This document shows, in pieces, positions 40,595-63,123 of a DNA stretch of 64,000 nucleotides. The DNA lies in the NCBI RefSeq assembly GCF_001552255.1, contig NZ_BCQV01000024.1, positions 1 through 64,000 on the forward strand, read 5' to 3'. The notes under the pieces were generated by a model, which was not told the origin of the DNA, made no database searches, and saw only the letters and a list, made by a program, of their open reading frames with translations. The position numbers and the translations under genes were made by a program. The DNA comes from Alicyclobacillus shizuokensis NBRC 103103. GTDB taxonomy: Bacteria > Bacillota > Bacilli > Alicyclobacillales > Alicyclobacillaceae. How positions within the stretch are numbered: position 1 is the first letter of the stretch; every line of letters begins with the position of its first letter.

Positions 40595-41117
40595 GGTTAT
40601 CCTCCTGTCCCGCAAAGCCTCTCACCCCACCCGGAATCCGCGTCGTCTGGGTACCTTAGCAACCATTCGAATTGTCATGATAGACCGGGCTTGCGAATAA
40701 GGTATCATAGGTGAAATTCCACATCACGATACACACTGTACGACTGTCAGAGAGGTACCTTTTACAACCTGTCGAACCGTTCAGGTAACGCTCTATTAAG
40801 GACAGGACCAGCTTCGTGTAAGAATTTTGACATACATCACCGCTTTGGCGAAAACTTTCAGACCTTCACGCGGGAAATGATGTCCTCAATCCTTCCAATC
40901 GATCTTGCGCATTCACCTCAAAAGTGCGATCTTACCCATAGAAACCATCGAATACCTCTTCTGCTGATTGTTCGCTTCTTTTAGGTAGATTGCACTTGAT
41001 GGTCTTATCATCGAGGAACCATCTCATAAGTATCAGTATCCCTGGGCTTTCATACCACTACTGAGTATTCGCTCGTCTTTCTCCGACTGAACCGCCGTCG
41101 AAACGGAGGCATGTGTG
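40595..41117. other. Divergent intergenic region between the pyrimidine genes and pucR-type regulator
   Basis: No gene is visible in these 523 bases. They must hold the promoters of the leftward aminotransferase-mmsA unit and the rightward regulator, and probably the regulator's binding site. GAAC-C-GTTC near 40774 is a short palindrome. Nothing stronger is seen. Confidence 0.45.
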
Positions 41118-42389
41118 ATGTCCGCTTGGCTCCGGGTGTGCGATGTCCTGAAACGACCGCCGTTTCAATCTGCCCTGCTCGCCGCGGGACAAGGAGGGCT
41201 CTCACGGCCCATCCGCTGGGTGCACATCCTGGACGTTCCAAACGCCCGCGGGCACATCCACGGCGGAGAACTGGTGCTGACGACCGGACTGGGCTTCGGA
41301 AAACATCCGTATCAGTTCCAATCGTTTATCGAAGAGCTGATTGAAGGCCAGGCAGCCGCGCTCTGCATTGAGTTGGGCACCGCCATTCGTGAGCTGCCAA
41401 CCGCCATCCGACGCCTGGCTGACGCCAACAACTTCCCCGTTCTGTTGTTTCCGAAACACGTGCGATTTGTCGACATCACACAGGACCTGCACAAACAGAT
41501 CCTCATCCACGAGCGCCAGGCCCTGTCTGAACAGACCTGGGTGGAAACCGTCATCAGCGGTCAAACCGTGTGGGATACAGAACCCTTGGCAGCGGCGATG
41601 TTACCCACACGATGGTTCTGCGTTGCCGTGTTGGCCCTCGATGAGCTGGTGGCCAGCAGAGCCGCGAATCCAAGCGTGGCGCTGGAAGTCTCGGAACAGC
41701 ACAGGCACACGGAATCCGATTGGATGCAACTGACCGCGTCGGCTTGGCGCGACGTGATCCCGTTCATCCGTCCGGCGTTTCGAGCTGAGGGACTGCGGAC
41801 ACATTTGGCTATGCGCCAGGAAGAGGTGATTGCGGTGCTGGAATTCAGCGATCCCGAACGGGACTGGGTGAGTGTCCTGAACACCGGTTTTTCGGCCGTT
41901 CAATCGGCGTGCTCAGAGTGCCTCGGCGCGCCGGCGGCCACTGCCCTGCACATGGGAGTGGGCAGACCGGTCAACGGTCTGGCCCAAGTACCGAACAGCT
42001 ATCAGGACGCGCGCAAAGCGCTTCTCATCTCGCGGCGGGTGCCCGGGCGCAGGTGGTGGATGTACGACGAGGCCGGTGTATTCCGTTGGCTGACACTGCT
42101 GGCCGGCTCACAAGCCGCGGCGGAACTGGCCGCGCGCGACCTCGATGAGTTGGCAGCCTACGACCGCCGGCATGGCACCCAGTTGCTGCAGACCCTGCGC
42201 GTCTACCTGGATTGCGACCGCTCCAAGCAACGCACTGCCGCCGCGCTGTACATCCATCGTCAGACGCTGTACCACCGATTGGAACAAATGGAGGCCATTC
42301 TGCGGTCCAACCTGGATGATCCCGTGCAACGTCTGTCCCTTCACCTCTCCGTGTATTACCGGACGTTCTTTCAACACCAACCCCATTGA
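41118..42389 (+). CDS. PucR-family transcriptional regulator
   Basis: This 423-residue regulator has an N-terminal PucR domain (LRVCDVLKRPPFQSALLAAG through PVLLFPK), a central GGDEF-like CdaR domain, and a C-terminal PucR-type helix-turn-helix (LRVYLDCDRSKQRTAAALYIHRQTLYHRLEQME, residues about 355-390). Such proteins activate purine and pyrimidine catabolic genes when a pathway intermediate binds. ATG 41118 lies eight bases after GGAGG (GTG 41115 is also possible). It is divergent from the beta-alanine/pyrimidine genes and is the likely activator of both that unit and the pre operon. Confidence 0.9.
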   Translation: MSAWLRVCDVLKRPPFQSALLAAGQGGLSRPIRWVHILDVPNARGHIHGGELVLTTGLGFGKHPYQFQSFIEELIEGQAAALCIELGTAIRELPTAIRRLADANNFPVLLFPKHVRFVDITQDLHKQILIHERQALSEQTWVETVISGQTVWDTEPLAAAMLPTRWFCVAVLALDELVASRAANPSVALEVSEQHRHTESDWMQLTASAWRDVIPFIRPAFRAEGLRTHLAMRQEEVIAVLEFSDPERDWVSVLNTGFSAVQSACSECLGAPAATALHMGVGRPVNGLAQVPNSYQDARKALLISRRVPGRRWWMYDEAGVFRWLTLLAGSQAAAELAARDLDELAAYDRRHGTQLLQTLRVYLDCDRSKQRTAAALYIHRQTLYHRLEQMEAILRSNLDDPVQRLSLHLSVYYRTFFQHQPH

Positions 42390-51413: not shown

Positions 51414-51468
51414 GATGCATTCCTCCTAAGTAGCCTAAGTATCCTATCTTTCGTACCTCTTGGTAAAC

Positions 51469-51483
51469 GCAAAAATCATGCCA
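51469..51483 (-). promoter_or_regulatory. Sigma-54 (-24/-12) promoter of the gabT operon
   Basis: On the minus strand TGGCATG-ATTT-TTGC matches TGGCACG-N4-TTGC with one mismatch, and GG and GC are at the exact 12-base spacing. The -12 element lies about 55 bases before the gabT start codon. The divergently encoded enhancer-binding protein is the obvious activator. Confidence 0.75.
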
Positions 51484-51662
51484 ACGTTGCACCGAATCTC
51501 CCATGGTAACGCGGTTGGCCTGCAACCGGAAGCAAGAAGCCACAAGTGATGCCGGAACCTCACCCAGGCTGCCCGCTGTCCTCTGGGGCGGCGACGCCTC
51601 GCCAGAGACCAGATGCATACAACCCGACTTGCTTTCGCTGCAGAGATGGTTCATATTTTGAT

Positions 51663-51678
51663 GCAAATATGCATTTGC
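51663..51678. promoter_or_regulatory. Possible enhancer (UAS) for the sigma-54 activator
   Basis: GCAAAT-ATGC-ATTTGC is an inverted repeat with 6-base arms, about 185 bases upstream of the -24/-12 promoter, the normal range for enhancer-binding proteins. Related ATGCA/TGCAT copies lie nearby at about 51613 and 51691. It also lies just before the activator gene, allowing autoregulation. Confidence 0.45.
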
Positions 51679-51744
51679 CTGGGCAGATGTGCATCAGTGG
51701 TCCTGCCCTCTGTGTGGGAAAATATTCCATAGAATGAGGAGACG

Positions 51745-53412
51745 ATGCGGATGGAGTCGACAGCCCTGTTGTCGGTGCTGGATACACCGCTGCTGTGGGT
51801 GACGCAGGAACGCGTGGCATGGGCCAATCCGGCCGCCAACGCCCTATTCGCGTCCGCGCCTACAGGGCGGCCCTGGCAAGAAATCACGCAGAACCTTCCG
51901 GACGGCTACACATATCGGCTGCATCCGCTGACGGCGACTACGCAGGCTGGCATGCTGATGGAGTGCATCCCAAAAGCCAGCGACGAACTCTGGCGCGAAG
52001 TTCAGCGCCTGGCCGCGGAAAACCGGGAATTGGAACAGATTCTTGATTCTTGCCTGGACGAGGTATTCGTCACCGATGCCGACGGACGAACGGTTCGCGT
52101 GAACGAGGCGGCCGCGCAGATGTACGGCATGACCCGGGAAGAACTGATTGGCCAATCGGTTTACGAGCTCGAGCAGGCTGGGGTCTTCTACCCGTCTGTC
52201 ACCTCGATGGTACTGCGCGAGAAAAAGCGGGTATCGGTACTTCAGACCACCCGATCCGGGAGACGGTTGATGGCCTCGGCCAATCCGGTCTTCGACGCAG
52301 ACGGAAATATTGTTCAGGTAGTGACGAGCGCCAAAGACGTGACCGAGTTAGACCTGCCCCCGCTGATACCGCACACCGCCCAGCGGGCAGACGCAGAGGG
52401 CGCAGCATTTGGGCCCACAATCACTCTGGTGGCCGAGAGCCCGCGCATGCAATCCGTGTTGAAAACCGCCACTCGTGCGGCCGCCACCGACGTGACGGTG
52501 CTGATACTGGGAGAAACAGGCGTCGGCAAAAATCGCTTGGCCGAGTACATTCACGCCCACAGCCGACGCAACGGTCAACCGTTTGTGCGTGTCGACTGCG
52601 CGTCCATTCCCGAGAACCTGTTGGAAAGTGAATTGTTTGGCTACGAGCCGGGGGCCTTCACGGGCGCCGGCCGGCGTGGCAAACCGGGGTTGGTCGAGAT
52701 GGCGGACGGGGGCACACTGTTTCTGGACGAGATTGCCGAGCTGCCGCCCACCGTACAATCCAAGTTGTTGCAGTTTGTACAGGAACAGAGCTTCACCCGT
52801 GTCGGTGGTGTGCGTCCAACCCGGGTCAATACCCGGATTGTCGCCGCGACCAACCGCGACCTCAGGAGCATGGTTTACCAGGGAACGTTTCGTGCTGACT
52901 TGTATTACCGGCTGAGCGTGCTGCCGATTGCGATACCGCCACTGCGTGAACGTCGTGAGGACGCGTCGCGGCTGTTCCGCGAAGCCGTGGACAGATACGC
53001 CCGCCGCTTCGGCACGTCGCCCAGGACGGTGACTCGGGAAACGTTGCGCTGTATCGAATCCTTGCCATGGCCGGGCAACATCCGCCAGCTGGAGAACGTC
53101 GCACAACGAGTCGTCCTGTTGTCGGACATAGCCGTCATCACGCCACACGTGGTGCGCCAGGCCATGGAAGAACCGACATGGGAGACCGACGCCCAGTGGG
53201 AGATTCCGCATCCTCCGGTTTCAGCCGTCAGGCAGCCTGCGCAACTCCCAACGGGCCAAACCCTCAAGGAACTGCTGGAAGAATACGAACGACACATTTT
53301 GGCGCAGGCGGCAACGTCCCATGCTTCCACCTACGCGATGGCCAAGGCGCTGGGCATCAGCCAATCCAGCGTCGTGCGCAAGCTGAGGCGATATGGAATC
53401 GGGGGAAGGTGA
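51745..53412 (+). CDS. Sigma-54-dependent transcriptional activator with PAS sensor
   Basis: This is a 555-residue enhancer-binding protein. A first small domain (residues 1-75) and a PAS domain (about 90-200, LDEVFVTDADGRTVRVNEAAAQMYG) are followed by the AAA+ domain. That domain has Walker A GETGVGKN, the sigma-54 contact loop GAFTGA in ELFGYEPGAFTGAG, Walker B GGTLFLDEI and the arginine region RFRADLYYRLSVLPI-like. The C-terminus is a TyrR/Fis-type helix-turn-helix (AMAKALGISQSSVVRKLRRYG). Walker A ends in N where E is commoner. It should activate the gabT operon at the -24/-12 promoter, perhaps on sensing an amino-acid intermediate, like RocR in Bacillus. Confidence 0.94.
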   Translation: MRMESTALLSVLDTPLLWVTQERVAWANPAANALFASAPTGRPWQEITQNLPDGYTYRLHPLTATTQAGMLMECIPKASDELWREVQRLAAENRELEQILDSCLDEVFVTDADGRTVRVNEAAAQMYGMTREELIGQSVYELEQAGVFYPSVTSMVLREKKRVSVLQTTRSGRRLMASANPVFDADGNIVQVVTSAKDVTELDLPPLIPHTAQRADAEGAAFGPTITLVAESPRMQSVLKTATRAAATDVTVLILGETGVGKNRLAEYIHAHSRRNGQPFVRVDCASIPENLLESELFGYEPGAFTGAGRRGKPGLVEMADGGTLFLDEIAELPPTVQSKLLQFVQEQSFTRVGGVRPTRVNTRIVAATNRDLRSMVYQGTFRADLYYRLSVLPIAIPPLRERREDASRLFREAVDRYARRFGTSPRTVTRETLRCIESLPWPGNIRQLENVAQRVVLLSDIAVITPHVVRQAMEEPTWETDAQWEIPHPPVSAVRQPAQLPTGQTLKELLEEYERHILAQAATSHASTYAMAKALGISQSSVVRKLRRYGIGGR

Positions 53413-53547: not shown

Positions 53548-53615
53548 AACATGCCGTCACCGCAGGCCATCGAAACGAAGCACAATGGCATTTACCCCAC
53601 CCCGAAAACAGCTTG

Positions 53616-54542
53616 TCAGGTCGTGACACCGGTGAAACCTTCGAGCCACTCCTGGCGGTGGTTGAAATAGAAGATGCCGCGCGCCAACTGATCCACCGTC
53701 CACTTCACCACAGGCATATCGGGATAGGCAATATATCCTCCGGTAAACACTTCGTTGCGATTCCCTGACGGATCGAAATAATAGATTGTCTGACCGCGCG
53801 TGATACCGTGACGCTCAATTCCAACGTCAATCGGCACATCATGCTTGGAAAATATATCTCCAGCTTTGCGCAACTCGTTGAATTCATCCAACCAGAACGC
53901 AAAGTGGTGAAGGCCTTCGTCTCTGCCTGGGATGACCGCGATATCATGGGGCGTGTTGCTCCTGAACAACCATGCTGACATGGGGGTATCCGAACGCTCG
54001 TTCTCAACCACCTTTTCACTCATATAGAAATTCAGTGATTTCATAAGAAATTCGATTGTCTCGTGCGGTCTCTCTGCTGTAATGAGCAAGTGGTCTATCC
54101 GAGGAACCCCGACACCTATGAGACCTTCAGGCGCCGGTACGGGATTAATCTGCGGAATGGCTTTACCTACATAGTCCATGTCGACAAACAATTCCATAAT
54201 ATGGCCCGACGGCAACCGAAACCGAATTCCCTCACCCACCTTGAAATTTTCGTTTTTGGATACACGGGTTACTATAGCGCCATGCTGATGAACTTGTTTT
54301 TCCAATCTCTCGAGGTCTTCATACGTGTGAACCTTGAATGCCATTTTGACCAGACCGGCCCGATCAGACTGACGAAGCACGATGGAATGGTGGTCGTACT
54401 CGTCCCAACCTTTCAGATAGACTGTGTCTTCAGTCCGGCTAGTCTCTTGCAACCCCATCACGTCGACATAGTGTTGGCTCGCCGCCTCTAAATCCGTTAC
54501 GCGAACGTCAACGAAACCCAAGCGCATGATTCCTTCTCCCAT
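53616..54542 (-). CDS. dmpB: Catechol 2,3-dioxygenase (DmpB/XylE type)
   Basis: This 308-residue type I extradiol dioxygenase has iron ligands in RIDHLLIT (His), LHHFAFWLD (His) and NRNEVF (Glu). ERHGITRGQTIYYFDPSGNRNE and WTVDQLARGIFYF are near-identical in pattern to DmpB of the Pseudomonas phenol pathway. It converts catechol to 2-hydroxymuconate semialdehyde. I place the start at ATG 54542, eight bases after AAGGAGG that overlaps the ferredoxin stop codon. Other ATGs are close by. It is the last gene of the phenol operon. Confidence 0.95.
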   Translation of the reverse strand: MGEGIMRLGFVDVRVTDLEAASQHYVDVMGLQETSRTEDTVYLKGWDEYDHHSIVLRQSDRAGLVKMAFKVHTYEDLERLEKQVHQHGAIVTRVSKNENFKVGEGIRFRLPSGHIMELFVDMDYVGKAIPQINPVPAPEGLIGVGVPRIDHLLITAERPHETIEFLMKSLNFYMSEKVVENERSDTPMSAWLFRSNTPHDIAVIPGRDEGLHHFAFWLDEFNELRKAGDIFSKHDVPIDVGIERHGITRGQTIYYFDPSGNRNEVFTGGYIAYPDMPVVKWTVDQLARGIFYFNHRQEWLEGFTGVTT

Positions 54543-54556
54543 CTGCATTTCCTCCT

Positions 54557-54934
54557 TCATTTTTCTCTACATGTAGAGTTGCCCACATGTTTTCGCCGCA
54601 GCATAACCAACCTTTCAAGGCGACTTGTCATGTATATGGAGACATGAGTTTTGAGCAACGACTTGCACGCTAGAATGTATCCTTGTGCCTTTTCATCATC
54701 CGGAAGAGCAGCTCGAGAATAAACCGCGCTGTGATCCACGTCTCCAAAGAGCAGACGCATCTTACATGAGGCACATCCTCCCCGCCGACAACCGAAAAAC
54801 AAGGGATGGCCTTCCCTGCCATAAAATTGGCGCATGAGTGCCTGCAGAAGGGTTTCACCCGGAAGCCCCCTCACCTCTTTTCCGTAGGGTTCAACATGGA
54901 CCAAAAATCCATCGTCACTGCTATTAAGTTCCAT
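54557..54934 (-). CDS. dmpQ: Plant-type [2Fe-2S] ferredoxin (XylT/DmpQ-like)
   Basis: This 125-residue ferredoxin has the plant-type cluster ligands C-x4-C-x2-C in GCRRGGCASC and a later cysteine in YILACKS. In meta-cleavage operons a ferredoxin of this kind (XylT, DmpQ) re-reduces the oxidised iron of catechol 2,3-dioxygenase. Its position right before the dioxygenase, with stop codon next to that gene's Shine-Dalgarno box, supports this role. The C-terminal 25 residues beyond the ferredoxin fold are basic. A perfect palindrome is embedded in the last codons. Confidence 0.88.
   Translation of the reverse strand: MELNSSDDGFLVHVEPYGKEVRGLPGETLLQALMRQFYGREGHPLFFGCRRGGCASCKMRLLFGDVDHSAVYSRAALPDDEKAQGYILACKSLLKTHVSIYMTSRLERLVMLRRKHVGNSTCREK
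54565..54578. promoter_or_regulatory. Perfect palindrome CTCTACATGTAGAG
   Basis: This 14-base perfect palindrome lies at the 3' end of the ferredoxin gene, just before the catechol dioxygenase. Ten of its bases (CTCTACATGT) recur upstream of the first monooxygenase gene at the other end of the operon, so it may be an operator of the phenol regulator. Confidence 0.45.
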
Positions 54935-54985
54935 ATCCCCACCCTTTCGCTATGCTCGTCATAAGGTGGTTCAGATACGAAAACA

Positions 54986-55417
54986 TCACAAGTATTCCTG
55001 CTGGATAATTGCCAACGCCGCTTCGCACACGGCTTCGTCCTCAGCTTCAGATCCTCCACTCACCCCAATGGCTCCAATCATCTCTCCGTCAACTTCGATA
55101 GGTGCCCCGCCGCCAAAGATGACCAGGTCCGGCGTATGGGGAATACCCAGTAATAGCCGTGGATTTTCTTTTAGCATGTTGTACCACCGATTTGTCGGCA
55201 TCCGGAAGGCGGCAGCGCTGTACGCCTTCCTCTGGGCAATTCCAATCGACAGCAGTGGTGCCTTATCCATTCTGCGAAACGCCTTAAGATGCCCCGCCTC
55301 GTCAGTAATGGCGATGTTGACCACCACCCCCAATTCCTTTGCCTTTTCTGTGGCACGTTGAATCAGCGCTTCCGCAAAGTCGATGGTTATGCACTTCTCA
55401 ACTTGGTACCTGTCCAC
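54986..55417 (-). CDS. HbpS/GlcG-family (DUF336) protein
   Basis: This 143-residue protein of the HbpS-like/GlcG family has the typical pattern ITIDFAEALIQRATEKAKELG, VNIAITDEAGHLKAFRRMDKAP, GIAQRKAYSAAAF and GGGAPIEVDGEMIGAIGVSGGS. Family members bind haem or small aromatics, and some occur in meta-cleavage gene clusters, but the function there is not settled. The GTG at 55417 is the most suitable start, although the GGGAGG box is 12 bases away. It sits between the ring-fission hydrolase and the ferredoxin. Confidence 0.8.
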   Translation of the reverse strand: MDRYQVEKCITIDFAEALIQRATEKAKELGVVVNIAITDEAGHLKAFRRMDKAPLLSIGIAQRKAYSAAAFRMPTNRWYNMLKENPRLLLGIPHTPDLVIFGGGAPIEVDGEMIGAIGVSGGSEAEDEAVCEAALAIIQQEYL

Positions 55418-55504
55418 TAATACATTCCGCCTCCCTGTATGAAACCTCTTTCCCACCGAGACACCACTTATCGTGAAGGTACGTCCATAGTGAACATCAA
55501 GTAA

Positions 55505-56362
55505 TCAAATATTCATTCTCTCACGACCATCACTTCCCAGAAGAAAATCCGAAACCAGCACGCAGAATCCATCTTTGCGCTCAATTTGCGTCCAATGACC
55601 ACACTGACCAAACACATGTAGCTCCGCTCTCGGCAAAAGCGTGAACAAACGATACGCATTCTCCAGTGGAATGACCTCATCTTCCCGTCCGTGAATAATC
55701 AAGGTCGCATTCTCGATCTTCCGAATATCATCATCTGGCGTAACCATGTCCCGTAACCGTTCCTCCAGGGGTTCACCAAACATTCGTTCGTACGCAGTGC
55801 GAGCCTCCGGATGCAGACTGTCTTGGTAGCGCATTTCCGCCAATCCAGGCGTGAGGTACTCCTTGTTGTAAGTGAAAATGTCCAGAAGTCGTTCCATTTC
55901 CTGCAGGTCCCGCGCCCTGTATCCCCAGACTGCTCGCAAGCCTTCCGTCATTTCAAACGGAACTCCCACCGACCCCATTAAAACCAATCTGCGACAGAGT
56001 TCTGGGTGCTCCGTTGCCAGGCGCAACGTCAGTGCCCCACCCATTGAATTGCCAATGAGATGCACCGGTTCACTCGTGACAGCGCGGACGAAGTCGTAGA
56101 TATGCCGGACCCACACATCCATGCCATACGAAATCCCCACAGGTCTTTGCGTTTTGCCAAACCCCACAATGTCTGGCGCATAGACCCGAAAGTGGTTACC
56201 GAAAAAGGGGATAACCCGCCCCCAATTCGCCCAAGCAGAAACTCCGGGTCCCGAGCCGTGAATCATCACCAAAGGAGGTCCATCACCGTGGACGTGATAA
56301 TGAGTCAAAATTCCACCTGCATCGATGTACTCGCCCTGTTCAAGTGCGTCTTCGTCAAGCAT
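55505..56362 (-). CDS. dmpD: 2-hydroxymuconate semialdehyde hydrolase (DmpD/XylF-like)
   Basis: This is a 285-residue alpha/beta hydrolase. The nucleophile serine is in GNSMGG, the oxyanion motif is HGSGPGVSAWANW, the acid is the aspartate in HGREDEVIP and the histidine is in FGQCGHWTQIE. These match the C-C bond hydrolases that split 2-hydroxymuconate semialdehyde (or its alkyl derivatives) to 2-hydroxypentadienoate and an acid. It supplies the hydrolytic branch after catechol 2,3-dioxygenase. The later hydratase, aldolase and acetaldehyde dehydrogenase genes are not in the window. Confidence 0.92.
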   Translation of the reverse strand: MLDEDALEQGEYIDAGGILTHYHVHGDGPPLVMIHGSGPGVSAWANWGRVIPFFGNHFRVYAPDIVGFGKTQRPVGISYGMDVWVRHIYDFVRAVTSEPVHLIGNSMGGALTLRLATEHPELCRRLVLMGSVGVPFEMTEGLRAVWGYRARDLQEMERLLDIFTYNKEYLTPGLAEMRYQDSLHPEARTAYERMFGEPLEERLRDMVTPDDDIRKIENATLIIHGREDEVIPLENAYRLFTLLPRAELHVFGQCGHWTQIERKDGFCVLVSDFLLGSDGRERMNI

Positions 56363-56474
56363 GGCCTACACTCCTCAACCTGGAATCAGGAACGCCGGGT
56401 CTTCATCCACTAGATACATATATTCGAGCGACTTAGATCACAAAAACTCCAGCCCCTGGCACACAGGAACACTC

Positions 56475-57500
56475 TTAAAATTCGTCGTAGAATATATTGG
56501 AGCTTCTCAACCCGCCCTTGTACAAAACCTTTAATGTGGTTTGAATGAGAATTGGCGGGCCACACAGGTATGCGTCCATGCCCAGGAAATCCTCCATGTA
56601 TTTGGCCACCACATCAGCAATGTACCCTTCCTCCCCAGACCACTCATCGAGCGGTTCCTTGTCCGACAAAGCCGGAATGAAGTGGAACCTGTCGTGAGTC
56701 TCCTGCAGATTGGTCCAATAATCGAGCAGATACAGGTCTTTCTTTGTCCGGGCACCATAGAAAAACCAAACATCATCGGTAATCGGCTGGGTGAACAAAT
56801 CCTCGAGCATCGCCTTGATTGGCGCCATCCCCGACCCGCCGGCGACGAACAACAACGGCTTGCTTCTATTCCTTAAGTACATTTTTCCATATGGCCCAGA
56901 TCCTTGGATCGAGTCTCCAGGTTGGAGGTCGCACATGTAATTGGACCCTTTGCCTCCCGGAATCCGCTTGATATGAAACTCCAGAAGCCCGGCATTGGTG
57001 CACGGGGTGGCCATAGAATAGGCCCGCGAATCCTCCATGCCGGGGATGACAAACTCACAAAACTGCCCAGCAGCATAGTCGAAGTTCGGCCTGTCCATCT
57101 GTACCGTCAGTTTGTGAATGTCGTGTGTGTAAGGCGTGTTTTCGACCACCACCCCGTCAAAGTCATGGATGGGATAGTACCTAGCCCCCTCCTCTTCTTC
57201 GAGTTCCTCGACTTCGACGACCATGTCGCTCTCCGGGAGGGTGCTGCACATCAGGACGTATCCTTCGCTGCGCTCAAAGCTCATGAGCGCGAACTCCGAA
57301 ACTCGGTCCATCAACTGATAGTCACCCTCTAACACGCGCGCCTTGCAAGACGAACAGTTGCCGTGGCGACACCCGTACGGTATCGGAAACCCCGAGCGAA
57401 GGACCGCGTCCAAGAGTGTCTGTCCTTCCTTGCAGACCACCTCACGACCGCTGGGCTCCAAGCTAATCCGGTATGTGGTCAACGAGTCAATCGCGTTCAT
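56475..57500 (-). CDS. dmpP: Phenol hydroxylase reductase component (DmpP-like)
   Basis: This 341-residue NADH reductase has an N-terminal plant-type [2Fe-2S] domain (YGCRHGNCSSC and LMCSTLPES), an FAD domain (RAYSMATP) and an NAD domain (VAGGSGMAPIKAML, FYGARTKKDLYL, YLCGPP). It transfers electrons from NADH to the diiron hydroxylase. ATG 57500 follows GGAGGAGG by nine bases and overlaps the end of the regulator gene by 14 bases, so regulator and reductase are translated from the same transcript. In most phenol operons the reductase follows the other hydroxylase genes directly. Here the regulator is in between. Confidence 0.93.
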   Translation of the reverse strand: MNAIDSLTTYRISLEPSGREVVCKEGQTLLDAVLRSGFPIPYGCRHGNCSSCKARVLEGDYQLMDRVSEFALMSFERSEGYVLMCSTLPESDMVVEVEELEEEEGARYYPIHDFDGVVVENTPYTHDIHKLTVQMDRPNFDYAAGQFCEFVIPGMEDSRAYSMATPCTNAGLLEFHIKRIPGGKGSNYMCDLQPGDSIQGSGPYGKMYLRNRSKPLLFVAGGSGMAPIKAMLEDLFTQPITDDVWFFYGARTKKDLYLLDYWTNLQETHDRFHFIPALSDKEPLDEWSGEEGYIADVVAKYMEDFLGMDAYLCGPPILIQTTLKVLYKGGLRSSNIFYDEF

Positions 57501-59439
57501 CCACTGCTTCCTCCTCCGTGAGTTGGGCACTGGCCAAGGATGGGAGCGTCATGTGATGGGTCCCCTGCCCACCTATGCGGGGGTCAAGTGCGGCCAAAGA
57601 TAAGCTGTCATGAATCTGTAACGCCATTTGCACGACAAATCGGTCGTGTCCACGGTTCAAGTCCAGTCCGCATAACTCCTGAATCTTGCCGACTCGGTAG
57701 CGGACACCCGTTTCTGAGACGTACAATTCACTCGCAACGCGCCGAATGTTGCCCGTGTGTTCCAAGTACGTACGCAGGGTCGGCAAAAGCTCCCCACGAT
57801 GTGCCGCATCGTATTGCACCAGCCGCCCGAGCACCGATTCATAAAACCGCATCACATCCGGATGCCCGACACTCTTCACCAACATCAGCACCGTCTGAAA
57901 TCCCTCGAAGATCCCAAATGCATGTCCGCAGGTTGGTGTGCTGTGCCCTTGTGCAAGGACCCAGTCGGCAATCAGTTTCGCGTCTTCGTAGCTGTTGCCG
58001 ATATCGGACATGGAGGATACCATCCGCCCACACCCCACGGACACCGATACAGCCTTGAGCCTGCGACGGATGTGAAGAACGATGGACTGGCACAGTTTTT
58101 CTAAGTCCCAGGGCGGGTTTTGGACTTTCGTGCAGCAAATCAGACCAAGGATGTGACAGCCTTTGCTGAAGAAGTGGAAATCTTGAAACCGATTACGAAT
58201 CAGCTCGAGCACATCGTCCTGCTGCTCCTCAGGTTCTACACGCACGGCCATGACCCGATATGCATCCTCCGGATTGAGGTCCAACATGCGTGCTCGGTAC
58301 GCTATCTCCTGTTCACTGTAGCTGCCTTGCAGGATACCGTCCAGAAAGTCGCCGATCTTCTGTTCACTATCCTTGAGCAACAGCTGCTCATAAAACATCT
58401 GTACAGCGCACACGTTGAGCGCCCGCTCCACAAGGACGTACGCTTCCTCTGCGATTGGGCTGTCCCCCACCAAAACCAGTCGCCCCAACCGTGTGCGATT
58501 TGCGAGGATGACAAACGCGTCAATGCAGACGCCATCCACTTCACACTGAACGTGCGGGCCTACCGGAGACTCTCGGTTGGGAACGGGGTTATCCTGGCGT
58601 TTCCAACTCGTATACGAAAACCGATGAGATGTCTCGTGCCAGGAACTCAATAACAGTTGCCCCCTTCTCCCTTCCAACACGACGCTGCGCTGCATGACCT
58701 CTTGAATGACCTGTACAATAATGGAGAGGTTCTTCCCCTCAAACACTAATTCACTCAGCCGCCTATGGAGGTTCAGCGATTGAATCAGCGTCTGGTTCAG
58801 GTGATGTAGCCTGCGATAGGCTAAATCCAGTTCAGTGGCCAGCGACTCCGCCTCAAAATAACGGAACATCTGGCGTTCTTGCTCACTGCAATTCGCTAAT
58901 GACTTGGCCACATATACACACTGGGAGTCCCCTTTTCCTCGACACTTAGACTCCGTAACCAGGACTGGCTCGCCAAAGATTTCCGATAGGTAACCGCTTG
59001 CATAGCCGAGCAGTGTGTAACAGACCGGCTCGTCACTCATGCCAAAGTGCCGCACATGTTCGTCCACTTCATACGAGTTGCGCCACTCTCCGGTGAAGTA
59101 CAACGTATGGCTGTCTTTATCGACATGGAGTTCCCACGGCTCGACGGTGACAGTCCCCTCCAGTGTGTGGAGAGTGGGGCCGGCCAGGTACAGTTCCCTC
59201 TCAGAATCCCAGGAAAACATGGTCTGAATCGATTGGGCGTCATGTTGCCCGCACGCCCATCCGTAGCGCATCAAAAACCCTTTGGCCCGCTCCATGCCGA
59301 GCGTACTGGCCAAGTCTCTGCGTAAAATCCCCAACGCCTCCACCGAAATGAGTGTCATCCGTTTATCATTGAATCGTATCGTCCCATTCCGCCGGTCAAT
59401 ATCCATGAGTCGCTCCAACAGCAGTTCCCTGGCCTTCAC
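57487..59439 (-). CDS. Aromatic-responsive regulator: XylR/DmpR-type sensor fused to PucR-type output
   Basis: This is a 650-residue regulator with a mixed architecture. Residues about 15-180 match the sensory half of DmpR/XylR: the activator-of-aromatic-catabolism domain (RDLASTLGMERAKGFLMRYGWACG) and the V4R domain with zinc-type cysteines C140, C166 and C174 (CYTLLGYASGYLSEIFG, CRGKGDSQC). DmpR and XylR continue with an AAA+ sigma-54 ATPase. Here there is none. Instead a GAF-like/helical middle (about 210-370) is followed by a CdaR/GGDEF-like domain and a PucR-type helix-turn-helix (TLRTYLEHTGNIRRVASELYVSETGVRYRVGKIQ, key residues about 555-590). The GTG start follows GGGAGGGG. It should sense phenols and activate ordinary sigma-A transcription. 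It is embedded between the fourth hydroxylase gene and the reductase gene. Confidence 0.88.
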   Translation of the reverse strand: MKARELLLERLMDIDRRNGTIRFNDKRMTLISVEALGILRRDLASTLGMERAKGFLMRYGWACGQHDAQSIQTMFSWDSERELYLAGPTLHTLEGTVTVEPWELHVDKDSHTLYFTGEWRNSYEVDEHVRHFGMSDEPVCYTLLGYASGYLSEIFGEPVLVTESKCRGKGDSQCVYVAKSLANCSEQERQMFRYFEAESLATELDLAYRRLHHLNQTLIQSLNLHRRLSELVFEGKNLSIIVQVIQEVMQRSVVLEGRRGQLLLSSWHETSHRFSYTSWKRQDNPVPNRESPVGPHVQCEVDGVCIDAFVILANRTRLGRLVLVGDSPIAEEAYVLVERALNVCAVQMFYEQLLLKDSEQKIGDFLDGILQGSYSEQEIAYRARMLDLNPEDAYRVMAVRVEPEEQQDDVLELIRNRFQDFHFFSKGCHILGLICCTKVQNPPWDLEKLCQSIVLHIRRRLKAVSVSVGCGRMVSSMSDIGNSYEDAKLIADWVLAQGHSTPTCGHAFGIFEGFQTVLMLVKSVGHPDVMRFYESVLGRLVQYDAAHRGELLPTLRTYLEHTGNIRRVASELYVSETGVRYRVGKIQELCGLDLNRGHDRFVVQMALQIHDSLSLAALDPRIGGQGTHHMTLPSLASAQLTEEEAVDERD

Positions 59440-59540
59440 CGAGACCCCTCCCTCTACGTGAGTCTGGTGATCTCTCGACGCCTTCGGAGACGATGTGCTA
59501 GGAATGTGAACGTCATTGGCATCGATCCGCGGACAGTCCG

Positions 59541-59783
59541 TTAACCCAGTAGGTCGATCGGATCGCCATCACGAAGCCCGTTCTCCTGCAGCGTTTTATC
59601 CAGATGCACGGGTTGTTGACCGGTGGCGTGCAAACGAACCAATTGGTATGTTTTTCCTTCTGGTAACCCCCACATTTGAGTTGCCTTATCCAACAGTTCT
59701 TGGGCCTTCATGTCGGGGTGAGCCGGCACTCCCTGGTGACTCAGAAACCGGTCGTCAGATGGCACTCGCACCCATACCAGCAC
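59541..59783 (-). CDS. Ubiquitin-like small subunit of the monooxygenase (TmoB-like)
   Basis: This 80-residue protein has a ubiquitin-like layout: two N-terminal beta strands (VLVWVRVPSDDRFLSHQG), a helix (MKAQELLDKATQMWG), then TYQLVRLHATGQQPVHLDKTLQENGLRDGDPIDLL. It resembles TmoB, the gamma subunit of toluene-4-monooxygenase, more than the larger DmpO P4 subunit of classical phenol hydroxylases. GTG 59783 follows AGGGGG by eight bases and lies 15 bases after the hydroxylase alpha gene. It probably stabilises the hydroxylase complex. Motif evidence is modest because the protein is short. Confidence 0.72.
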   Translation of the reverse strand: MLVWVRVPSDDRFLSHQGVPAHPDMKAQELLDKATQMWGLPEGKTYQLVRLHATGQQPVHLDKTLQENGLRDGDPIDLLG

Positions 59784-59798
59784 GAACGATGCCCCCTC

Positions 59799-61307
59799 TC
59801 AAACCGTTTCAAACCTTTTGTCTAAGCCCAGTTCCTCGCGGTAGCGGATCCAACGGTGATAATCTCGCGAGGAATAATGTTCATTGGCCTCTTCCGGCGT
59901 GAACCCGAAATACTCAAACATGTCTTCCAACGATGAACCGAACTCCCCGGACAGATACGACTCGGCCGGCCACCACCACTGCATGTATTTCTCAGGTTCC
60001 GCAAGGAAAATGTCGCGACAACCTGGAGAACAGAGCATGTGTGTCTTCCCGTTGTACTCTACATACTGCGTCCAAGATTCCTGGGGCCTATCCGGGTTTG
60101 GATATTCACACGGGATTTGGCATACCGCGCAAACCGCCGGTAGGCCAGGAGAGGCCACAGCCATGACGTGATCATCCATCTTACGGAAAAACGGCGCGTA
60201 ATACCGCTCGAAAGTGTTCGGATACTCTCTGGACAACCAATCATAATCGTCCGGCTGCAGGCGAAAACCGCGGAAGTAGTTGGCGTGCTTGTAATGATCA
60301 AGAATCCTCATGGTGGCATGCGAATAATGTTCTTTCTCTTTCATACTGTCCTCAAAGTGGCGCGGTGGCCGTATACCATATTTGAAAAGGTCCTTGAATA
60401 GACCGTTTAACACCTGGTCCTCGACGTACATTTCAAACGCTTTCTTCCAAGAGATGGCTCGTATTCGTGGATAGTAATCCACCAACGTCGAGATGACAGC
60501 GAACACGCGGTAGCATCGCCAAAACCATTTATCCAACCAGCGCTGGACAATCGGGATATTCCTATCGTCTTCCTCCAGCAGCATCTTTAACGCCGCCATG
60601 CCAAGCGCCATATGACGCGATTCATCCGACTGAACGCTTTTTCCGACGGACGCAAAGTGTTCGTCTCCCACAGCCGCGGCTGAAGAAGCAAATGGGAGAA
60701 ACAAGATGTTTGTGAACACATATTCAAACGAGAACGAAATGGCGATCAACGCCTCGAAGGGCCCGGACGTGAGGGCGTCGTCAAAAAATGACTTGGGGAC
60801 TGTGTTGAACCAAAGATTCTCGTTTGTCTTCGAGTAGGCATGCAATCCGTCATAATACCGACTCATGTGAGCGTAGTGTTTGATTTCTATTTGGGCGTGA
60901 CGAAGTTCGTCAACAGCCTGGTTGAAGGTGGCAAAGCGAATGGCCTCAATCGGAATATTTCTCCCAATGTAGGCCATCAACCGGTGTGCCGCGTACTCTG
61001 CCGGTTGCACCGCGACAGCAAACGCCTTGACCCCCTCGAACCAGCGACTGTCCACAATGCGGGCGTGCCCGTGATTGGCCTCAAACGCGCCGCGAATTGC
61101 ATGGTGCAAATGCTCCTTTTCGGATTGAATTTTTACATACTGGTTAAAGGTCATGCGAAATGGGTCTTCCCAGCGTTTGGGGTCGCGAATGTGAATCCCC
61201 TCCGCTTCAATCAGCGGATAAATCTCCTTTATATTCACGTCCTTAGGGTCCCACATCAGGTCCCGTGTAAGCGCTTTATATCGCGTGCTGACATTTAACT
61301 TGGCCAT
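59799..61307 (-). CDS. dmpN: Phenol/toluene monooxygenase hydroxylase alpha subunit (DmpN-like)
   Basis: This is the 502-residue diiron hydroxylase. All six iron ligands are present and canonically spaced: E104, E134 and H137 (DELRHAQ), E195, E229 and H232 (DESRHMAL). A YHS-like domain follows near residues 385-435 (CAVCQIPCEYPN, MLCSPGCRDIFLAEPEKY), typical of phenol hydroxylase and toluene monooxygenase alpha chains. It hydroxylates phenol or toluene-type rings with O2. The ATG is preceded by GAGGGGGGG. Substrate (phenol versus toluene/benzene) cannot be fixed from sequence. Confidence 0.95.
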   Translation of the reverse strand: MAKLNVSTRYKALTRDLMWDPKDVNIKEIYPLIEAEGIHIRDPKRWEDPFRMTFNQYVKIQSEKEHLHHAIRGAFEANHGHARIVDSRWFEGVKAFAVAVQPAEYAAHRLMAYIGRNIPIEAIRFATFNQAVDELRHAQIEIKHYAHMSRYYDGLHAYSKTNENLWFNTVPKSFFDDALTSGPFEALIAISFSFEYVFTNILFLPFASSAAAVGDEHFASVGKSVQSDESRHMALGMAALKMLLEEDDRNIPIVQRWLDKWFWRCYRVFAVISTLVDYYPRIRAISWKKAFEMYVEDQVLNGLFKDLFKYGIRPPRHFEDSMKEKEHYSHATMRILDHYKHANYFRGFRLQPDDYDWLSREYPNTFERYYAPFFRKMDDHVMAVASPGLPAVCAVCQIPCEYPNPDRPQESWTQYVEYNGKTHMLCSPGCRDIFLAEPEKYMQWWWPAESYLSGEFGSSLEDMFEYFGFTPEEANEHYSSRDYHRWIRYREELGLDKRFETV

Positions 61308-61377
61308 GGAAAATCCCCCCCTCTACAGTTTTGAATCCCGTCCCGTTTGATAGAAATAGCATGGAACCCAGCTCGTT

Positions 61378-61680
61378 TCAGGACTCGTCCGCGCTCCAGC
61401 GAATGACAAGCTTCTCCTCATCCCACTCTTCGATAAAACCAAAGTATGAGGCCATCACCATGTGTAACTCCTGAAGGTCCCAGTTGCGTCCCAAGATGTC
61501 CTCCACCAGTTGTCGGCGAATGATCATCCGCTGCGGAGCTTTGACCTTGACGTAAATATTGAAGTCAACCAGCTCGACACCGGGATTGTCCTGCTGAATC
61601 GCCTCCACAACCGCGTCGGTGACAGCCCCACCATTCTTATCGAGATCCACGCCTACGTACTGCTGTTGTGACGTCGCCAC
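61378..61680 (-). CDS. dmpM: Monooxygenase effector/coupling protein (MmoB/DmpM family)
   Basis: This 100-residue regulatory protein of the MmoB/DmpM family has no cofactor. It begins YVGVDLDKNGGAVTDAVVEAI, and the core VDFNIYVKVKAPQRMIIRR with LGRNWDLQELHMVMASYFG is typical of DmpM. It binds the hydroxylase and couples O2 activation to substrate turnover. The GTG start follows AAGGGGAG. It sits between the beta and alpha hydroxylase subunit genes, the conserved L-M-N order. Confidence 0.92.
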   Translation of the reverse strand: MATSQQQYVGVDLDKNGGAVTDAVVEAIQQDNPGVELVDFNIYVKVKAPQRMIIRRQLVEDILGRNWDLQELHMVMASYFGFIEEWDEEKLVIRWSADES

Positions 61681-61692
61681 ATCTATCTCCCC

Positions 61693-62805
61693 TTAAACCG
61701 ATATTTTTACATCAATACCGCACTTTTCTAAGGTGGGAAGGATGTAACTTGCCATGGCACGTTCCATCACAGGTTCAACCGCACAAGAGATACCGTGGCG
61801 ATCCAACAGACTTTGCAGCGGCGTCACCGCCTGTATGGCTCTGCTGATCCACTTGCTCGCCCACTGCGACATAATTTCCTGATTGGTCAAGGTTTCTTCC
61901 GGGGTGCTTTTCGGATTCGACAAGGTTCTCCCCCAACGGTAATCCCCAGGCCAGTCTTCGTACCCGAGCGACTTCAGATAGTCCCAACGGCTGGTGGTAG
62001 GATCAGTGGCAATCAACTGAAAGAGACTGGCCGTCCAGTTTTCTTGCCATTGCACCTGCTCGGAGCAGATAAGCGCCAATTCGGCCAATACAGGATCCCC
62101 GTGTTCAATTGAAATCGCATTCAGCTGTTCATACGCCAGACGGTCTAGGATGGGCTCAATCGCCAAGTGCAAGGCGACCAACACCTCGACCCAATCGTCC
62201 GTAACAAGCACGTGTTCCATGTAGCTGCGCAGCTTATCGTAAGATTCGTCCTCCAGCCACAGTTGGCGAGCGTGTTGCAAGGCTTGCAGCCCTTCCCCGC
62301 CGGCAAACTCCAAAGCCCACGTACTCAACCACTGCGCGCGTCCCTGCTTATCGAACGCGGTGTACGTAGCGGCCTGCTCGATAGGACACCCCATGGCGTA
62401 GCGTACGACGTGCTGCAGCTGCACAGCTCCGGCGTACTCGTAGTGGCGCAGGGGTGTATAGAAGGCGAGACTGAATTTCCTCCAGGCTGGGTCCACCCGT
62501 TCGTAGATGGCCAACTTGCCTGCGCGTTCAAACAACGCTTCTACCTCATCCGCCATCTTCTTGCGCGTCATCACGTACGTCTGATACCATAACTTTTTAG
62601 GATCACGAAACGCTTCCCAGTCACGCACGCGGACGCGCGTGTAGCGCGGATCGTAGATATCGTAGTCTGGCTTGTAATACTTGTTTCGGTAGTGACCATG
62701 GATGTAAGGCTGTTCCCGCAAAGTGACTTCTTCGTACTCATTCTTGGTCGCCCAGTCCCATGGCTGCTGTCGAATCGGCTGCAGGTTTCTGGCCTGCATG
62801 GTCAC
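61693..62805 (-). CDS. dmpL: Phenol/toluene monooxygenase hydroxylase beta subunit (DmpL-like)
   Basis: This 370-residue subunit has the ferritin-like fold but no iron ligands. The start of the chain (QPWDWATKNEYEEVT), DPAWRKFSLAFYTPLRHYEYAGAVQLQHVVRYAMG, and QWLSTWALEFAGGEGLQALQHARQLW match DmpL/TomA1. It forms the (alpha-beta-gamma)2 hydroxylase with DmpN. The GTG start at 62805 is six bases after AGGGGGGG (ATG 62799 is possible). It is the first gene of the operon. A DmpK-like P0 gene is absent upstream. Confidence 0.93.
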   Translation of the reverse strand: MTMQARNLQPIRQQPWDWATKNEYEEVTLREQPYIHGHYRNKYYKPDYDIYDPRYTRVRVRDWEAFRDPKKLWYQTYVMTRKKMADEVEALFERAGKLAIYERVDPAWRKFSLAFYTPLRHYEYAGAVQLQHVVRYAMGCPIEQAATYTAFDKQGRAQWLSTWALEFAGGEGLQALQHARQLWLEDESYDKLRSYMEHVLVTDDWVEVLVALHLAIEPILDRLAYEQLNAISIEHGDPVLAELALICSEQVQWQENWTASLFQLIATDPTTSRWDYLKSLGYEDWPGDYRWGRTLSNPKSTPEETLTNQEIMSQWASKWISRAIQAVTPLQSLLDRHGISCAVEPVMERAMASYILPTLEKCGIDVKISV

Positions 62806-63123
62806 GGCAGTCCCCCCCTTCCATGTGGATGTTCATGTCTACCTTGTAGAAAAACTCTCTACATGTGGCCGTCACCCCTCTCCGTGCGCAATCGGGTGCT
62901 TCTGGCTCGAACTCGTTGTTCATCCTCATTTTCTCCTGACGTCGGTTGCGCGGAAAGTGTGTATTTATATAAAATTCAGCCCGATATAGCGAGGATTTCG
63001 CAAAACGGTGGTTGGCTTTTCCCTTCACCCCGTTCCGCCGCAGCATGCGTCTGCTATGATGTCTTCAGATGCGCGAGCGGCCACAGGCCCCAATGCGCTG
63101 GGAAAAGGAGAGGAGTGGACACG
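62806..63123. other. Divergent promoter region of the phenol operon and yoaK-like gene
   Basis: No gene is visible in these 318 bases. On the minus strand an AT-rich patch near 62960-62980 (TTTTATATAAATAC) is a likely -10 region for the phenol operon. Inverted sequences around 62833-62866 (CATGT...ACATG, and GTCTAC with GTAGA) are candidates for regulator binding. No good -24/-12 promoter is present. Confidence 0.45.
62857..62868. promoter_or_regulatory. CTCTACATGTGG, partial copy of the phenol-operon palindrome
   Basis: Ten bases (CTCTACATGT) are identical to the perfect palindrome at 54565-54578. The site lies about 55 bases upstream of the first monooxygenase gene, a suitable place for an operator. 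Confidence 0.4.

Follow-up and report, generated by a model that had tools for sequence, protein, structure and literature searches.

The window (the whole 64,000-nucleotide stretch of Alicyclobacillus shizuokensis DNA analyzed here) carries on its reverse strand an operon for phenol degradation, in which the gene of a PheR-type regulator is placed between a dmpO-like open reading frame (ORF) and a dmpP-like reductase gene. The operon order is dmpL, dmpM, dmpN, dmpO-like ORF, regulator, dmpP, hydrolase, HbpS-like gene, ferredoxin, and catechol 2,3-dioxygenase, with the following coordinates:

61693 to 62805, reverse strand: dmpL-like phenol hydroxylase subunit (Phenol_Hydrox), the first recognized gene of the operon
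61378 to 61680, reverse strand: dmpM-like gene (MmoB_DmpM)
59799 to 61307, reverse strand: dmpN-like large hydroxylase subunit (Phenol_Hydrox and YHS)
59541 to 59783, reverse strand: dmpO-like small ORF (LVWVRVPSDDRFLSHQ...), directly upstream of the regulator gene
57487 to 59439, reverse strand: PheR-type regulator gene, 650 amino acids, with a GTG start and the ribosome-binding site GGGAGGGG directly upstream
56475 to 57500, reverse strand: dmpP-like reductase (2Fe-2S and FAD/NAD), with its ATG at 57500
55505 to 56362, reverse strand: meta-cleavage product (HMSA-type) hydrolase
54986 to 55456, reverse strand: HbpS-like protein
54557 to 54934, reverse strand: 2Fe-2S ferredoxin (DmpQ/XylT-like)
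53616 to 54560, reverse strand: catechol 2,3-dioxygenase (TIGR03211, above the cutoff)

The dmpO-like ORF was named from its position and its likeness to the small ORF that follows dmpN in relatives. The start of dmpP (57500) overlaps the 3′ end of the regulator gene, whose stop lies at 57487. The regulator gene also stands directly before dmpP in at least four related operons, and the gene order dmpN(O)-regulator-dmpP repeats in related operons, sometimes with a hydrolase gene preceding the regulator. HbpS-like genes occur in or near many such aromatic operons, and 17 regulators have one close by.

A Pfam scan, a structural model, and Foldseek searches divide the regulator into the following parts:

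59119 to 59418, reverse strand: XylR_N domain, residues 8 to 107 (Pfam, E = 8e-30), containing H91
58903 to 59085, reverse strand: V4R domain, residues 119 to 179 (Pfam, E = 3e-14), containing W119 and the zinc ligands C140, E163, C166, and C174
58741 to 58842, reverse strand: long helix, residues 200 to 233 (model), which by its location would correspond to the coiled-coil B-linker of DmpR
58465 to 58728, reverse strand: GAF-like domain, residues ∼238 to 325 (model, Foldseek, and a weak match to the CodY GAF profile)
residues 331 to 370, reverse strand: 40-residue helix after the GAF-like domain (model)
57973 to 58326, reverse strand: GGDEF_2 (GGDEF-like) domain, residues 372 to 489 (Pfam, E = 4e-14; structural matches Rv2242 [9f80] and 3onq)
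57613 to 57789, reverse strand: HTH_30 PucR-type DNA-binding domain, residues 551 to 609 (Pfam, E = 7e-18; structural match Rv2242 [9f80])

The scores of XylR_N, V4R, GGDEF_2, and HTH_30 each exceed the Pfam curated cutoff. A preliminary description of this DNA had proposed XylR_N and V4R in the N-terminal part, a CdaR/PucR-type helix-turn-helix (HTH) at the C terminus, and the absence of an AAA+ domain. The scan agrees on each point: every domain was found at the positions given above, and no AAA+ family was detected in the middle or elsewhere in the 650 residues. The motifs CRGKGDSQC and GYASGY, cited in the same description, are both present. The Pfam scan also found neither a Fis-type HTH, in whose place HTH_30 stands, nor PF07905, the N-terminal domain of classical PucR proteins. 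The preliminary description had passed over the GAF-like domain at residues ∼238 to 345, the GGDEF-like domain, the location within a phenol operon, and how widely the architecture is distributed.

A sequence search of the PDB matched MopR, DmpR/CapR, and PoxR, in each case the sensor domain (E values down to 1e-40). The nearest NCBIfam models, both below their cutoffs, were MobR for the N-terminal third (residues 8 to 234) and AdeR for the C-terminal half. An AlphaFold2 model built from 78 natural sequences has a mean pLDDT of 89, while its pTM is 0.63, and the relative placement of the domains is therefore uncertain. In Foldseek, the N-terminal 190 residues match the sensor structures of PoxR, MopR, and DmpR, with target TM-scores of 0.82 to 0.91 for the PoxR and MopR domains, in line with the resemblance to the DmpR sensor that had been suggested from sequence. 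The C-terminal part matches the PucR-type protein Rv2242 (9f80) as well as 3onq, and the nearest fold to the GAF-like domain is the CodY GAF (2gx5; target TM-score, 0.63 to 0.68). These searches confirm that one protein joins a DmpR/MopR-type aromatic sensor to a PucR/CdaR-type output.

The regulator shares with DmpR, MopR, PoxR, and XylR the sensor fold, the phenol-positioning His/Trp, the zinc site, and the subsequent coiled coil. Those four proteins, however, have an AAA+ ATPase (with GAFTGA or GAYTGA) and a Fis-type HTH and need sigma-54, whereas the regulator has the GAF-like, GGDEF-like, and HTH_30 domains in the place of AAA+ and the Fis-type HTH. Its GGDEF-like domain and HTH_30 output are shared with Rv2242 (MabR) (PMC11617747), whose N-terminal sensor is globin-like rather than XylR_N/V4R. 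Classical PucR proteins differ in having PF07905, which the regulator lacks; one of them (PF07905, GGDEF_2, and HTH_30) is encoded in the window at 41115 to 42389.

The same combination can be recognized in a published lineage. PheR of Geobacillus stearothermophilus DSM 6285 is a 642-amino-acid protein whose gene is cotranscribed with the phenol genes of the phe operon (BMC Microbiol 2008, PMC2590616). That paper described a subdomain arrangement unlike that of DmpR and XylR, made no mention of PucR, and left the mode of action of PheR to further work, how Gram-positive bacteria regulate phenol degradation being an open matter at the time (PMC2590616). On the Parageobacillus plasmid pNCI001, which has a phe-like gene order, a 642-amino-acid protein in the PheR position contains XylR_N, V4R, GGDEF_2, and HTH_30 (Pfam). 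Judged through this protein, by its equal length and gene order and not by the deposited DSM 6285 sequence, PheR has the sensor-PucR architecture, and like the regulator its gene lies within a phenol meta-pathway operon. The two are only about 25% identical, and the phe operon encodes a two-component flavin phenol hydroxylase where the window operon encodes a multicomponent di-iron enzyme. The regulator is a further member of the known PheR kind and is ordinary for Bacillota. That kind is known but biochemically unstudied. In the literature searched we found no study of Gram-positive phenol regulation after 2008, and a search whose coverage left out most subscription journals found no paper naming the XylR_N-V4R-PucR combination.

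We surveyed how widely the architecture occurs. XylR_N was detected in 43 of 399 genomes of the class, and the regions around 40 of these matches contained 43 regulator ORFs, all with a PucR-type C terminus and none with a GAFTGA motif. Across the phylum, 7 of the 398 genomes drawn had XylR_N; none of the seven matches had AAA+, and several ended before the HTH could be read. Every readable XylR_N protein in the sampled Bacillota genomes is of the sensor-PucR type. When 24 members were scanned, all had XylR_N and V4R at the N terminus; scans of family members likewise gave GGDEF_2 and HTH_30 at the C terminus and no AAA+. Two of the phylum-level matches (L162 and L165) are longer versions, open frames of ∼800 amino acids in which, judged by eye, an extra GAF-like domain follows V4R.

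The full-length regulator as a query gave no match against species genome contigs, unlike an alignment-based scan of species genomes, which returned at least 489 related stretches; of these, the 80 best were retained, all titled Bacillota. The pooled set of 115 distinct proteins has the HTH region throughout, with no AAA+ match and no instance of G.[FY]TGA, a pattern used since true sigma-54 proteins carry GAFTGA or GAYTGA. The class and phylum surveys are the less biased evidence because the scan-derived proteins were chosen by resemblance to the regulator family. In a plasmid collection, six records match at least 80% of the query at a single place, all from Priestia and Parageobacillus, while the Proteobacterial matches listed extend little beyond the sensor and, where annotated, belong to sigma-54 regulators. 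RefSeq entries from Priestia and Parageobacillus plasmids titled "XylR N-terminal domain-containing protein" are 27 to 37% identical to the regulator over ∼95% of the length; they carry only this name, with no function assigned past the domain. Many proteins combine XylR_N, V4R, and HTH_30. The preliminary description implied something out of the ordinary; this does not hold, as the fusion is the only XylR_N architecture in the sampled Bacillota and is common to the published PheR lineage. A rare or lone fusion event is ruled out by the class and phylum surveys.

To consider the ligand, we aligned the sensor with structurally characterized relatives. H91, W119, C140, E163, C166, and C174 of the regulator align with positions 106, 134, 155, 178, 181, and 189 of the MopR chain, and PoxR and DmpR have identical residues at these six sites (PDB sequence alignments). 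In DmpR, the phenol hydroxyl sits between His100, which aligns with H91, and Trp128, while three cysteines and one glutamate coordinate a zinc ion (PMC7264223; its cysteine numbers are two above those from the alignment). Of 125 homologues, 124 retain H91, and all retain the other five residues. XylR has a tyrosine at the position of the DmpR histidine (PMC7264223), and our alignment, as an internal control, places a tyrosine there in XylR of pDK1, a toluene/xylene-type regulator. Because the His/Trp pair and the zinc residues are conserved, a phenol-type ligand is likely, as far as aligned residues can indicate.

Pocket conservation leaves the ligand specificity unfixed, and the effector may be a pathway intermediate or another aromatic compound (catechol, a cresol, or a hydroxyphenylacetate-type compound) in place of phenol. 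The family occurs in several pathway types: a gene of the meta-cleavage, phenol-hydroxylase, or HpaB type lies no more than 7 kb from 91 of the 115 distinct regulators. Multicomponent phenol hydroxylases accompany 15 regulators and HpaB-type monooxygenases 45, and no regulator has both. Crystal structures of MopR with catechol, o-cresol, and 3-chlorophenol also exist. However, the His/Trp pair orienting the phenol hydroxyl is retained and the operon starts with a phenol hydroxylase, so that we regard a nonphenol effector as possible but doubtful.

Upstream of dmpL, we examined the region in which the promoter presumably lies:

62940 to 63000, reverse strand: presumed operon promoter region, with the AT-rich −10-like element TTTTATATAAAT

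No good −35 accompanies TTTTATATAAAT, and a short inverted repeat (GCGA-N5-TCGC) is found directly upstream. A search for a −24/−12 site upstream of dmpL, where the promoter position is presumed only, found none, and a promoter scan of the region ahead of dmpL gave nothing above chance, with fewer sites than chance. The combination of TTTTATATAAAT with no good −35 would fit an activator-dependent sigma-A promoter and hints weakly at one; it is plausible that the regulator acts at a promoter of this class.

The same module could also work in the opposite sense, as a phenol-responsive repressor whose HTH_30 domain occupies the operon promoter without effector and leaves the DNA with phenol. PucR/CdaR-type outputs are not confined to activators, and some repress; a gene within its own operon suits autorepression as well, and we infer the activator role at a promoter that is itself presumed. 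The poor −35, on the other hand, is as expected where an activator is needed, and in every case studied to our knowledge (DmpR, XylR, MopR, and PoxR), the XylR_N/V4R sensor belongs to an activator. We therefore consider repression unlikely.

A candidate operator was sought in related operons. The inverted repeat CGACGAAT-N12-ATTCGTCG matches at 16 of 16, 14 of 16, and 13 of 16 positions in three of them, in each case directly upstream of a −10-like element:

L079, 2499 to 2526; L045, 4322 to 4349; L046, 15755 to 15782: CGACGAAT-N12-ATTCGTCG repeat, ahead of the first gene of the operon

The repeat is a candidate operator in these three relatives. In the window it could not be clearly made out, and as an operator common to the window operon it was set aside and remains a lead.

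The preliminary description had also pointed to a true sigma-54 activator 4 kb from the regulator and to sigma-54 activation in the host, and both claims are borne out. The ORF has a Sigma54_activat domain, and the genome encodes sigma-54 (PF04552, E = 1.5e-63). The fusion is not forced by a lack of sigma-54 because the host encodes it. The relevant features are as follows:

51745 to 53412, forward strand: sigma-54 activator, divergent from the GABA-transaminase gene gabT
about 51660 to 51680, reverse strand: palindrome GCAAATGCATATTTGC, farther upstream of gabT in the activator-gabT spacer
51468 to 51483, reverse strand: −24/−12-like site (TGGCATGATTTTTGCG), ∼55 bp ahead of gabT

The activator has PAS domains and its nearest models are of the PrdR/NifA type; the domain search found no XylR_N/V4R in it. 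It probably serves the gabT operon and not the phenol operon because it is divergent from gabT with a −24/−12-like site before that gene. As chance alone predicts 5.45 such matches in the 64-kb window at the stringency used, the argument rests on position, by which TGGCATGATTTTTGCG is likely the target of the sigma-54 activator and no part of phenol regulation. The gabT locus itself is probably an amine operon of the GABA type under sigma-54 control, which also encodes a permease and a nitrilase-family enzyme. Control of the phenol operon by this activator was rejected, there being no −24/−12 site at that operon and one ahead of gabT. Cooperation between the regulator and the activator, with sigma-54 still driving the phenol operon, would draw on the proximity of 4 kb and the sigma-54 gene, but the orientation toward gabT, the site and palindrome in that spacer, the empty search before dmpL, and the PAS-based, PrdR/NifA-type makeup of the activator make it highly improbable.

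Our preferred reading, to which we assign a probability of about 0.7, is that the regulator is a one-component, phenol-type sensor of the PheR kind exerting positive control over the dmp-like operon that holds its own gene. A phenolic effector would bind between H91 and W119 in the XylR_N/V4R dimer, which contains zinc. The signal would then run through the coiled coil of residues 200 to 233, the GAF-like domain, and the helix of residues 331 to 370 to the GGDEF-like/HTH_30 module, which would bind or remodel a palindromic site beside a sigma-A-type promoter. The regulator would then recruit RNA polymerase, with neither ATP hydrolysis nor sigma-54 needed. Because its gene lies inside the operon, induction would raise the expression of the regulator itself, in a positive feedback.

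The history of the fusion was approached with a sensor-domain tree of 115 PucR-type and 12 sigma-54-type proteins. The tree splits cleanly by output, with one change (SH-aLRT, 99); it is unrooted, and its sigma-54 side is a small sample from Proteobacterial plasmids. This topology is compatible with the output module having been exchanged once, in either direction. We give an even chance to the proposal that one event in Bacillota coupled the entire XylR_N/V4R sensor lineage to a PucR output with a relay GAF, by which the phenol switch that frees an ATPase in Proteobacteria would govern DNA binding or polymerase recruitment at sigma-A promoters. If that is true, the mechanism is new biochemistry, although the proteins are common. 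One small-molecule sensor drives two unrelated outputs, a sigma-54 ATPase in Proteobacteria versus a PucR-type module in Bacillota, which amounts to a natural domain-swap experiment. Phenol-responsive regulators of this kind are expected to work without sigma-54 and could find use in Gram-positive and thermophilic biosensors.

The operon as a whole (53600 to 62900) has a G+C content of 50 to 55%, versus ∼58 to 66% in the 13 kb past its 3′ end. Only 1 other of 41 family genomes yielded a dmpN homologue, and neither of two same-genus genomes did. Because of the lower G+C content and the missing dmpN in the two same-genus genomes, the phenol operon is probably acquired DNA. The dmpN-like subunit shares 83 to 91% identity with the corresponding proteins of six related operons, where identity falls to about 48 to 68% for DmpL, DmpM, and DmpP. 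Between the G379 operon and the window, dmpN is 83% and the regulator 35% identical, as if the regulator had been swapped inside a near-identical operon. Most other proteins of that pair are likewise just 49 to 57% identical and the ferredoxin 33%; on this account a swap was rejected, dmpN being simply the slowest-changing gene.

The same genome encodes a second sensor-PucR regulator (G000:C23; L032, 8374 to 10404, reverse strand). No aromatic genes were recognized near it; its gene is divergent from those for a cupin, a likely MFS transporter, and a zinc alcohol dehydrogenase.
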